NCBI RefSeq assembly: GCF_023634065.1
Contig: NZ_JALKCV010000007.1
Coordinates: 1-64,000 of the forward strand
DNA from: Microbulbifer litoralis
GTDB lineage: Bacteria > Pseudomonadota > Gammaproteobacteria > Pseudomonadales > Cellvibrionaceae
DNA length: 64,000 nucleotides
Direction: 5' to 3'
The notes beneath the pieces are model-generated. The model saw nothing but the letters and a program-made list of their open reading frames with translations. It did not search any database and was not told where the DNA came from. Both the position numbers and the translations under genes were made by a program. Below are positions 44,675-47,324 of this stretch, piece after piece (the stretch's first letter is position 1; each line of letters begins with the position of its first letter).

Positions 44675-44750
44675 GGCCCTGCTGCCGGGGGTTGTTTGCT
44701 CAACAGCCTCATCGGCAATCGTTTCACAAACAACCCCCGCCAGTAGGGCC
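44675..44750 (+). repeat. Foldback element C (24-bp arms, 28-nt loop)
   Basis: Arms 44675-44698 and 44727-44750 match at 22 of 24 positions as inverted copies. The left end GGCCCTGCTGCCGG is identical to that of element A at 9759, and the right end is followed by TTTGC, close to the TTCGC after element A. The inner stem (GGGTTGTTTG) is again unique, and the loop is shorter and lacks the CATCCCTG motif. Confidence 0.8.
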
Positions 44751-44817
44751 TTTGCATCTGGCTTGGATGTTCTTTTTGAGCTTGATCGGGACGGTGCGCA
44801 CGGCGCACCCTGCCTGA

Positions 44818-44915
44818 GAGTCCCGAGTCCCGAGTCCCGAGTCCCGAGTCCCGAGTCCCGAGTCCCGAGTCCCGAGTCCCGAGTCCCGAGTCCCGAGTCC
44901 CGAGTCCCGAGTCCC
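44818..44915 (+). repeat. Heptanucleotide array (GAGTCCC)14 upstream of uvrD
   Basis: Fourteen perfect tandem copies of GAGTCCC without a single change. It ends five bases before the LexA-like box of uvrD. The reverse-complement unit forms a second array just after uvrD. Confidence 0.98.
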
Positions 44916-44920
44916 AAAAC

Positions 44921-44962
44921 CTGTTTATTTACACAGGTAACGCCCGCCAGCTCTGGTACAAT
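44921..44962 (+). promoter_or_regulatory. LexA-type SOS box and -10 element of uvrD
   Basis: CTGTTTATTTACACAG (44921-44936) fits the CTGT-N8-ACAG LexA consensus of gammaproteobacteria. A -10-like TACAAT lies at 44957-44962, with only a poor -35 at the expected place inside the box. A start about seven bases later would leave almost no untranslated leader before the ATG at 44971. uvrD is SOS-controlled in E. coli, which supports the call. Confidence 0.65.
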
Positions 44963-44970
44963 CGCCACCC

Positions 44971-47190
44971 ATGGACGTTTCTCAGATTCTAGACCCCCTC
45001 AACGACGCCCAGCGCGAGGCCGTGGCCGCGCCGCCGGGCAACCAACTGGTACTGGCCGGCGCCGGTTCCGGCAAGACCCGTGTACTGGTGCACCGTATCG
45101 CCTGGCTGATGCAGGTGGAAGGGGCCTCGCCCTACTCCATCATGGCAGTGACCTTCACCAACAAGGCCGCCCGCGAGATGCGCGCGCGCATCGAGGAACT
45201 GCTGGGGGTGAACACCTTCGGCATGTGGGTGGGCACCTTTCACGGCCTCGCGCACCGGCTGCTGAAGGCGCACTGGCAGGAAGCCAGGCTGCCGCAGAAT
45301 TTCCAGATCCTGGACAGCGACGACCAGCTGCGCCTGATCAAGCGGGTGCAGAACGACCTGGGCTTGGATGAGAAAAAGTGGCCGCCGCGGGAGACCCAGT
45401 GGTGGATCGGTGGCCAGAAAGACGAGGGCCTGCGGCCACAGTATATCCAGGCCGGCGCCGACCTGTGGCTGCAGACCATGGTGCGTATCTATTTCGCCTA
45501 CGAGGAGGCCTGCCAGCGCGGCGGCCTGGTCGATTTCGGCGAGCTGCTGCTGCGCGCCCACGAGCTGCTGCGGGACAACGACGCCATACTGGCCCACTAT
45601 CGCCGCCGCTTCCCCTATATCCTGGTGGACGAGTTCCAAGACACCAACACCATCCAGTACGCCTGGCTGCGGCTGCTGGCCGGCGACCAGAGCCGCATCA
45701 CCGCCGTCGGCGACGACGACCAGTCCATCTATGGCTGGCGCGGTGCGAAGATCGAGAATATCCAGCACTTCGAGCGCGATATGCCCGGAGTGCAGACGGT
45801 GCGCCTGGAGCAGAACTACCGCTCCACCGCCACCATCCTGGATGCCGCCAACGCGGTGATTGCCCACAACAGCGGCCGCCTGGGCAAGGAGCTGTGGACC
45901 CGGGGCGAGGAAGGCGAGCCGATCGCGCTCTATTCCGCCTACAACGAGCAGGACGAGGCGCGTTTTATCGTCGAGCGCATCCAGGAGTGGGTGCGCGACG
46001 GCAACCGCCGCGACAGCGTCGCTATCCTGTACCGTTCCAACGCCCAGTCGCGAGTCCTCGAGGAGGCGCTGCTGCGCGAACAGGTGCCCTACCGCATCTA
46101 CGGCGGCCAGCGTTTCTATGAGCGCATGGAGATCAAGAACGCGCTGTCCTATATGCGCCTGATCGCCAACCGCGACGACGACACCGCCTTCGAGCGGGTC
46201 GTGAACACACCCACCCGCGGTATCGGCGCGCGCACCGTGGAGACCGTGCGCAGCTTCGCCCGCGAGCACGGCTGCTCCCTGTGGCAGGCGGCCAAACAGA
46301 TGCAGCAGCAGCGGGTGCTGGCCGCCCGCGCCGGCAACGCGCTGCAGAGTTTCCTCGACCTGGTCAATCACCTGGCCGCGAATGCCGAAGACAGAGAGCT
46401 GGATGCGATCGCCGAGGATGTGATCGAGACCAGCGGCCTGCTGGATTTCCACGGCAAGGAAAAGGGCGAGAAGGGCCAGACGCGGGTGGAAAACCTGCAG
46501 GAACTGGTGACCGCCTGCCGCGGCTTCGACGGCGCCGTGCTGCCGGAAGACGAGCAGAATGAAGAGGAGCGGCCGCTGCTGGACCAGTTCCTCGACAGCG
46601 CCGCGCTGGATGCCGGCGAGGGTCAGGCGGACGAGTTCGAGGACGCGGTGCAGCTGATGACCCTGCACTCCGCCAAGGGGCTGGAGTTCCCGCTGGTATT
46701 TATGGCCGGCGTGGAGGAAAACCTGTTCCCGCACAAGATGTCGGCGCAGGAACCCGGCCGCATGGAGGAGGAGCGCCGCCTCTGCTACGTGGGCATTACC
46801 CGCGCGATGCAGAAATTGTACATCACCTACGCCGAGAGTCGCCGCCTGTTCGGCACCGAGAATTTCAATACACCGTCGCGCTTTGTCAGCGAGATACCGG
46901 CGCAGCTGGTACACGAGGTGCGGCTGAAAACCGAGATCTCGCGGCCGCTGTTTAAACCCGGTTTTGCAGAAAACAAATGGGGAAAAGTCGGCGACCTTTC
47001 GGATCCGCCGCCGGATTTCGACGACCTGCCGCCGCTGGCTTTGGGCGGCCGCGTCGAACACAAAAAATTTGGCGAGGGCACCGTGGTGCAGTTCGAGGGC
47101 AACGGCCCCCGCACCCGTGTGCAGGTCAACTTCGACGATGCCGGCAGCAAGTGGCTGGTCGTTGCCATGGCCAAACTGCAGCCGCTTTAA
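44971..47190 (+). CDS. uvrD: DNA helicase II (UvrD)
   Basis: The 739-residue superfamily 1A helicase unwinds DNA 3' to 5' in nucleotide excision and mismatch repair. Motif I is AGAGSGKTR (Lys35), then TFTNKAAREM (Ia), VDEFQDTN (II), GDDDQSIYGWRGA (III), VRLEQNYRS (IV), VQLMTLHSAKGLEFPLVF (V) and RRLCYVGITRAM (VI). The C-terminal VEHKKFGEGTV-type domain marks UvrD/PcrA proteins. A LexA-type box precedes it. It is enclosed by oppositely oriented heptamer arrays that begin 56 bp before the start and 7 bp after the stop. Confidence 0.96.
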   Translation: MDVSQILDPLNDAQREAVAAPPGNQLVLAGAGSGKTRVLVHRIAWLMQVEGASPYSIMAVTFTNKAAREMRARIEELLGVNTFGMWVGTFHGLAHRLLKAHWQEARLPQNFQILDSDDQLRLIKRVQNDLGLDEKKWPPRETQWWIGGQKDEGLRPQYIQAGADLWLQTMVRIYFAYEEACQRGGLVDFGELLLRAHELLRDNDAILAHYRRRFPYILVDEFQDTNTIQYAWLRLLAGDQSRITAVGDDDQSIYGWRGAKIENIQHFERDMPGVQTVRLEQNYRSTATILDAANAVIAHNSGRLGKELWTRGEEGEPIALYSAYNEQDEARFIVERIQEWVRDGNRRDSVAILYRSNAQSRVLEEALLREQVPYRIYGGQRFYERMEIKNALSYMRLIANRDDDTAFERVVNTPTRGIGARTVETVRSFAREHGCSLWQAAKQMQQQRVLAARAGNALQSFLDLVNHLAANAEDRELDAIAEDVIETSGLLDFHGKEKGEKGQTRVENLQELVTACRGFDGAVLPEDEQNEEERPLLDQFLDSAALDAGEGQADEFEDAVQLMTLHSAKGLEFPLVFMAGVEENLFPHKMSAQEPGRMEEERRLCYVGITRAMQKLYITYAESRRLFGTENFNTPSRFVSEIPAQLVHEVRLKTEISRPLFKPGFAENKWGKVGDLSDPPPDFDDLPPLALGGRVEHKKFGEGTVVQFEGNGPRTRVQVNFDDAGSKWLVVAMAKLQPL

Positions 47191-47197
47191 TGTCGTC

Positions 47198-47253
47198 GGG
47201 ACTCGGGACTCGGGACTCGGGACTCGGGACTCGGGACTCGGGACTCGGGACTC
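47198..47253 (-). repeat. Heptanucleotide array (GGGACTC)8 downstream of uvrD
   Basis: Eight perfect copies of GGGACTC followed by a partial GGGAC. This is the reverse complement of the unit before uvrD, so the two arrays form an inverted repeat around the gene. Confidence 0.97.
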
Positions 47254-47324
47254 GGGACCTGGGTGCGCGGAGCTCCAGCTCCGCTTGCGGACGCCAAGCC
47301 TGCCATTGATAGTCAAAATAAACG

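Follow-up and report, generated by a model that had tools for sequence, protein, structure and literature searches.

Inverted heptamer arrays around uvrD in Microbulbifer litoralis: probably ordinary examples of a genome-wide array family that borders on dispersed palindromes

In the genome of Microbulbifer litoralis, the gene for DNA helicase II (uvrD) stands between two arrays of one perfect heptamer in inverted orientation, and we asked whether these arrays have anything to do with uvrD. The window, i.e. the whole stretch of DNA analysed, comprises the first 64,000 nucleotides of contig 7 (NZ_JALKCV010000007.1) in an assembly of 4,990,775 bases and 40 contigs (GCF_023634065.1, hereafter G000). 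Repeat finding confirmed what a sequence-only reading of the window had described, namely 14 perfect GAGTCCC copies before uvrD and 8 whole GGGACTC units after it. The upstream array (14.0 copies; 44818..44915) carries the G-rich unit GGGACTC on the minus strand and the downstream array (9.0 perfect periods of 7; 47196..47258) on the plus strand, both G strands pointing away from uvrD. The downstream array begins 5 nt past the uvrD stop codon and consists of the 8 whole units (47198-47253) with a partial unit at each end. A pattern of three units had 18 matches in the window against a mean of 0.00 in 100 dinucleotide shuffles. We found no special role for uvrD, which is incidental to the arrays: they are probably ordinary members of a genome-wide (GGGACTC)n family, grown by slippage from seeds at the edges of hairpins.

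The three-unit pattern gave 447 overlapping matches in the whole genome (246 forward and 201 reverse), and the reversed pattern used as a control gave 0. We located the arrays in 1.804 Mb of this genome, in four contiguous pieces (C1, 800 kb; C2, 480 kb; C3, 320 kb; and C7, 204 kb, which includes the window), and the array counts below refer to this sample unless another genome is named. It held 52 arrays of at least 2 copies and 45 of at least 3 copies, which by extrapolation amounts to about 144 arrays genome-wide if they are evenly spread. GGGACTC was the unit in 45 out of 46 period-7 runs of at least 3 copies. Array lengths were broadly spread, from 2.1 to 16.3 copies across sites; 10 out of the 52 arrays had 4.0–4.9 copies, close to the four units that the heptamers of Xanthomonas and Nostoc prefer. 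The genes that adjoin or hold arrays have many different functions: they include lipoamide dehydrogenase (lpd), ychF, mltB, dksA, gluQRS, carA, carB, dnaJ, recN, metG and ydiJ, as well as dnaX, exonuclease I (sbcB), ispG, pepA, mutL, orn, lysA, rep, phoU and spoT. Listing the arrays with their neighbours in this way gave no link to uvrD, contrary to the sequence-only reading. We scanned 40 distinct proteins as array neighbours (most but not all of them; a few, such as hisS and hscB, are not the nearest ORF, or open reading frame) and 6 belonged to replication or repair genes (uvrD, rep, mutL, dnaX, recN and sbcB). Core genes are numerous in this set, so we claim no enrichment of arrays at replication and repair genes.

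The uvrD loci of other genomes pointed the same way. Among 61 such loci, 26 (81–94% identity, all Microbulbifer) and 35 (25–65% identity), none had a GGGACTC run of at least 2.3 copies. In M. halophilus (G015), whose uvrD is 90% identical to that of M. litoralis, the upstream site holds 2 units instead of 14, followed directly by the AAAAGAAT palindrome, and there is no array just downstream of uvrD. In G023, G035 and G041, the three further Microbulbifer genomes with arrays, no array was found within 260 nt before or 160 nt after the gene. An association specific to uvrD was thus rejected on these 61 loci and on the many other neighbour genes. The sequence-only reading had also proposed that the arrays may pair and invert uvrD; between species, the orientation of uvrD to the upstream rpiR-like gene was the same in 25 out of the 26 named Microbulbifer loci, and the 26th is cut off at that stretch. 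It had further proposed that the arrays could change length quickly. Unit number probably does change over time, as the 2 units of M. halophilus against 14 suggest, and the part of the claim that concerns present-day instability is something that we infer.

A 75-kb stretch of M. halophilus that matches part of C1 contained 0 arrays of at least 2 copies, though seven array sites of M. litoralis map there. At several of these sites, inspection by eye showed lone heptamer-like sequences, which would fit growth from seeds but does not demonstrate it. No clean empty site could be resolved, the intergenic regions of M. halophilus and G019 being too divergent. Contigs C16, C20, C35, C39, C43 and C57 of M. 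halophilus start or stop inside or beside heptamer arrays. Since its contigs break within arrays, the array counts of this genome are lower bounds.

The inverted placement around a repair helicase gene, which had been singled out as striking, results from the way in which the arrays are oriented to their neighbouring genes. With genes called by a simple ORF script, the gene on the 5' side of the G-rich strand was the closer one in 40 out of the 52 arrays (median distance 3 nt, compared to 135.5 nt for the gene on the 3' side), and in 29 out of 34 when the ORF-overlapping arrays were left out. The array lay 0–50 nt from the 5' gene in 32 out of 52 cases and from the 3' gene in 4 out of 52. A count of heptamers after stop codons, made without masking the arrays, is a hint only. 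Since the G strands are mostly directed away from genes, any gene flanked by arrays on both sides appears bracketed by inverted arrays, and the bracketing of uvrD is one case of this general tendency. Neighbouring arrays less than 5 kb apart formed 4 convergent pairs (gaps of 135, 156, 374 and 530 bp), 6 divergent pairs (605, 665, 2280, 2465, 3144 and 3285 bp) and 6 same-strand pairs. The arrays at uvrD make up the divergent pair with the 2280-bp gap. Between carB and carA, an ORF for a four-helix-bundle protein (TIGR02436; L175:9744-10151, minus strand) lies between convergent arrays at G000:C1:589754 and C1:590160, and in G019 the same gap is a short spacer only.

On their other side, the arrays mark the transition from unique DNA to dispersed palindromes. 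Read on the G strand, the 50-nt 3' flank had at least 2 other BLAST hits in the sample in 35 out of 52 arrays, compared to 3 out of 52 for the 5' flank (2 of these 3 contained extra heptamers) and 24 out of 300 for random 50-mers. The same test in G035, with hits counted in the own-genome sample, gave at least 2 hits for 7 out of 10 3' flanks and 0 out of 10 5' flanks (one had a single hit). In G381, a genome of another family of the class, a comparison with only ten pieces, too small to rely on, gave at least 2 hits in 5 out of 12 rows for the 3' flank and in 1 out of 12 for the 5' flank. A hairpin-energy test, superseded by this larger test of flank copy number, had placed 7 out of 24 3' flanks and 1 out of 24 5' flanks below the 5% point of the background. 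Taken together with the distances to genes, the arrays tend to lie at borders at which unique sequence under constraint (the end or start of a gene, or a protein domain) gives way to DNA free of constraint. In most cases the G-rich strand enters this free DNA in the 5' to 3' direction, and often it leads directly into a dispersed palindrome.

The commonest 3' partner of the arrays was a hairpin of the repetitive extragenic palindromic (REP) type, GTAG-GGTGCGC-CGT-GCGCACC. The REP pattern GYAGGGTGCGCYGYGCGCACC had 89 matches in the M. litoralis genome and its control 0, and a REP set with a GTAG or GCAG foot and up to 3 substitutions numbered 44 copies in the 1.804-Mb sample. GGGACTC was found within 25 nt 5' of the foot in 16 out of these 44 copies (one being a lone unit about 14 nt off) and GAGTCCC in 0 out of 44; beyond the 3' end of the REP, GGGACTC was present in 0 out of 44 and GAGTCCC in 2 out of 44. 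In both of the latter cases the REP is reversed, yet still stands 3' of the G strand of the array. Moreover, 13 out of the 16 arrays that run into a REP within a few nucleotides share one end phase, i.e. GGGACTC, usually 2–4 nt, and then GTAG or GCAG. Other 3' partners were GTAGGAGC and GGAGCTCC hairpins and a longer palindrome starting with AAAAGAA, and 21 out of the 52 arrays were assigned to no flank class. The genome also contains a candidate gene for a REP-associated tyrosine transposase (RAYT), a 183-aa Y1_Tnp ORF on the minus strand (L308:14126-14677, i.e. G000:C10:114126-114677), with a REP upstream, a REP inside that keeps the reading frame open and a degenerate REP at its end.

Start phase was a further regularity of the arrays. 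The opening letter of the repeat, ahead of the first GGG, was T or C (phases 5 and 6) in 42 out of 52 arrays, compared to 2/7 at random, with a probability of 8e-15 under a simple random-phase null; under an alternative null, with a start at the first G and chance-matching neighbours, the expected share would be roughly a third (an estimate only). The same start phases were seen in G035 (7 out of 10), G381 (9 out of 15), M. halophilus (5 out of 10), G414 (3 out of 3), G256 (2 out of 2), G023 (1 out of 2) and G171 (0 out of 1), in counts that include arrays at contig ends (5 out of the 15 in G381) and beside a gap. This preferred phase suggests that the array end may be the defined end of something.

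Within the genus, arrays and this REP family went together. The three-unit pattern was present in 5 out of 48 Microbulbifer genomes (G000, G015, G023, G035 and G041) and the exact REP pattern in 6 out of 48, which were the same five and G036 (9 copies). The joined pattern GGGACTC-N0-12-GYAGGGTGCGC occurred only in the five array genomes, with 0 matches in the controls. The hypergeometric probability that all 5 array genomes fall within the 6 REP genomes is about 4e-6, though the effective number of independent cases is nearer three, because the array genomes occupy three places in the uvrD tree (which covers 30 of the 48 genomes). In the class-wide sample, (GGGANTC)4 was found in 5 out of 369 genomes, M. 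litoralis included, and one of these has GGGATTC in large number. In G381, convergent GGGATTC arrays surround a repeated element with AAGGAGTGTGGC...GGTATTGACACC ends (e.g. in L337 and L343).

At uvrD itself, the identity of the gene (44971..47190, plus strand, 739 aa) was clear from protein profiles: it matched the UvrD profile NF008743 with 1220.7 bits against a cut-off of 965, as well as the Pfam domains UvrD-helicase, UvrD_C and PcrA_UvrD_tudor. Outward from uvrD on the upstream side come the array, then a REP and then the AAAAGAAC palindrome. The REP-type hairpin (GCAG-GGTGCGC-CGT-GCGCACC; 44793..44813, minus strand) lies directly outside the upstream array, on the 3' side of its G strand; it is one of the 89 pattern matches and has a GCAG foot, not GTAG. 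The dispersed palindromic element (44675..44776, minus strand) is the next member of this non-coding block; its arms, delimited by eye, lie at about 44675-44698 and 44727-44750, its AAAAGAACATCC...GATGCAAAGG end is at 44749-44776, and its relatives are present in M. litoralis itself, M. halophilus and G035. On the downstream side, the hairpin GCGGAGCTCCAGCTCCGC (47267..47284, plus strand) stands just outside the array, again 3' of its G strand, in a 50-nt flank that had 8 other BLAST hits in the 1.804-Mb sample.

The stretch from the upstream array to uvrD contains CTGTttatttacACAG (44921..44936, plus strand), which resembles a LexA box; it is identical in M. halophilus, M. donghaiensis and G041 and changed in G023 and G035. 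It is followed by TACAAT, a -10-like hexamer (44957..44962, plus strand) that also occurs in M. halophilus, M. donghaiensis, G041, G023 and G035. This hexamer suggests that the uvrD promoter sits inside the two arrays. Because the conserved box separates the upstream array from the start codon, that array should be outside the uvrD mRNA; a stem between the two arrays in this transcript is therefore unlikely. Any effect of the arrays on uvrD expression would most likely be exerted at the 3' end of the mRNA.

Some arrays lie inside genes. The mutL gene (L286:16877-18733, minus strand, i.e. G000:C3:56877-58733) has two convergent arrays in its coding linker, at C3:57472-57504 (4.7 copies) and C3:57661-57692 (4.6 copies), and it reads through in frame to a product of 618 aa that scores 927 bits (cut-off 750). 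The linker is variable among M. halophilus, G041, G023, G035 and G008, and arrays were found there in none of these five genomes. Similarly, the gene for DNA polymerase III gamma/tau, dnaX (L271:14734-17256, plus strand), has convergent arrays in a coding linker at G000:C2:236241 (3.6 copies) and C2:236796 (2.6 copies). The heptamer unit is open in every frame (GTRDSGL or ESRVPSP), but a change in unit number would preserve the reading frame only if units came or went in multiples of three.

Based on this, we consider growth from seeds at hairpin edges the probable origin of the arrays, those at uvrD included. Replication slippage would lengthen a heptamer seed that borders on an intergenic hairpin element: the nascent G-rich strand, on nearing the hairpin, may stall and fold back as a putative quadruplex, which would favour the gain of units, and the seeds may have spread partly along with the palindromic elements. 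Several observations weigh against this explanation. Slippage alone leaves unexplained that one heptamer is found everywhere and that two start phases account for 42 out of 52 arrays. The 3' flank was not multicopy in 17 out of 52 arrays, and in 2 out of the 35 multicopy 3' flanks (C1:306327 and C7:66459) extra heptamers may explain the matches. Three of the four arrays in mutL and dnaX have no multicopy 3' flank, so hairpin stalling is not the whole story. Regarding polarity, 12 out of the 52 arrays were not nearer to the 5' gene, and 18 out of the 104 array-to-gene distances were negative through ORF overlap (11 on the 5' side of the G-rich strand and 7 on the 3' side). Finally, each species was represented by one genome, and present-day instability of the arrays has to be read with this in mind.

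Four other explanations were weighed against growth from seeds. That the arrays make up a contingency locus specific to uvrD, changing in length or inverting the gene, is extremely improbable. The change from 2 to 14 upstream units between M. halophilus and M. litoralis would agree with it, as would the arrays in or beside mutL, dnaX, recN, sbcB and rep, but arrays adjoin lpd, ychF, metG, carA/carB, lysA, phoU, spoT and others just as well, and the survey of other uvrD loci gave neither comparable runs nor a second orientation. A different possibility, compatible with growth from seeds but in our view unlikely, is that the arrays are selected signals at gene boundaries (transcription ends, RNA quadruplexes or insulators) that also expand, in which case their position directly past stop codons, and antisense ahead of starts, would be functional. 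The closeness of 32 out of 52 arrays to the 5' gene, including core genes such as dksA, metG, dnaJ, pepA and lysA, argues for such a role, and most of the comparable arrays of Xanthomonas are reported to be transcribed (Rehm et al., PMC4692102). Against it, 43 out of the 48 Microbulbifer genomes do without the three-unit pattern, lengths vary from 2.1 to 16.3 copies, and Rehm et al. were unable to assign their arrays a function in gene regulation.

The two remaining explanations take the palindromes as their starting point. If RAYT made the arrays, it would bind the GTAG hairpin and nick the CT of each GGGACTC, and repeated nicking and transfer would multiply the unit 5' of the REP. The placement of the heptamer 5' of 16 out of 44 REP feet, the end phase shared by 13 out of 16 REP-adjacent arrays, the presence of arrays in 5 out of the 6 Microbulbifer genomes with the REP pattern and in 0 out of the 42 without it, and the open RAYT ORF of M. 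litoralis flanked by REPs all agree with this, as does the published cleavage of other bacteria's RAYTs at a CT beside the GTAG hairpin (PMC8266576), given that GGGACTC contains CT. However, RAYT was not found at E<=1e-20 in M. halophilus, G023 and G041, while G035 contains only a relative at 49% and G008, which is free of arrays, one at 50%; 33 out of the 52 arrays fall outside the two REP-adjacent classes, and the heptamers GGGATTC and GGGAATC of other genomes lack CT. Because it was not found in three of the other four array genomes, RAYT is probably not the general driver; as the maker of the arrays we judge it very doubtful. Distinctly unlikely, too, is that mobile non-coding blocks, each beginning with the fixed end (T)CGGGA..., have grown at their termini into the arrays, convergent arrays being their terminal inverted repeats. 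It would account for 42 out of 52 arrays starting at T or C before GGG although 49 out of 52 5' flanks are not multicopy, for the like start phases of G035 and G381 (the latter with 5 out of 15 arrays at contig ends), and for the convergent pairs that bracket short blocks, one of them with the four-helix-bundle ORF. On the other hand, neither an excision nor a cleanly joined empty site was found, and the intergenic DNA of relatives has diverged too far to reveal one; what separates the convergent arrays of mutL is an old linker, not an insert; and the start-phase rule is weaker in M. halophilus (5 out of 10).

Arrays of this kind are already known from Xanthomonas and Nostoc. Rehm et al. (2015; PMC4692102) described the quadruplex-forming heptamers GGGAATC (Xanthomonas) and GGGGA(C/T)T (Nostoc), with 186, 183 and 89 arrays in three genomes; the arrays of Xanthomonas lie closer to the ORF that is 5' of them on the G strand (on average 28 vs 160 nt), and their role was left to be elucidated. 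The arrays of Microbulbifer likewise have a GGG-tract heptamer, many perfect arrays, a mostly intergenic position, antisense before starts and sense after stops, and closeness to the 5' ORF, and they share with Xanthomonas the convergent pairs, long perfect examples and lengths that differ between related species. They differ in their unit, GGGACTC, and in the retention of sites: 83% of the Xcc arrays are at the same place in Xac (PMC4692102), whereas only 1 out of the 9 M. litoralis sites compared has at least 2 units in M. halophilus. The available parts of the Xanthomonas paper treat REPs as a separate repeat class and mention neither adjacency of arrays to REPs or palindromes nor a fixed 5' phase; intragenic heptamer arrays are reported there in general, and mutL and dnaX are not named.

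The Microbulbifer REPs resemble the GTAG-class REP/RAYT systems (PMC2817692, PMC3733652, PMC8266576) in their GTAG or GTAG-like foot, short hairpin, high copy number (tens to about a hundred), intergenic position, inverted pairs and one RAYT ORF flanked by the same REP. They differ in that the REP is the neighbour of an array and not itself an array, an adjacency that the available text of those papers does not mention. Other heptamer families include the TAACTGA repeats of marine Beggiatoaceae (PMC4679880), also of a single unit, with 169 sets in one genome and patchy across taxa, but not G-rich and of another unit, for which their author suggested translational regulation, and the GGGACCG repeats of Geobacter metallireducens (PMC2700814), heptanucleotide tandems at 49 places between and within genes, which are described with four units and differ from GGGACTC in two letters. 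Text searches of the literature, with subscription papers mostly outside their reach, found no link between heptamer arrays and REPs among the matches listed. The kind is thus known, and the link to palindromes, the start phase and the cases of mutL and dnaX were not found in print.

For the organism, the arrays in mutL and dnaX are possible frame-switching sites, where one unit gained or lost in mutL would be a frameshift in a mismatch-repair gene. A broader proposal, tentative and on balance unlikely, takes the heptamer arrays of distant bacteria to be directional and expanding ends of mobile non-coding blocks like REPs or bacterial interspersed mosaic elements (BIMEs), with the G strand inward, a preferred phase and an occurrence only alongside palindromes. 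If true, it would tie heptamer microsatellites and REPs to one mechanism, and the entry of arrays into the coding linkers of mutL and dnaX would be a by-product. For bacteria that have at least 100 arrays of one unit, the polarity into palindromic blocks, the co-occurrence with one REP family and the start phase offer handles on the origin of the arrays.

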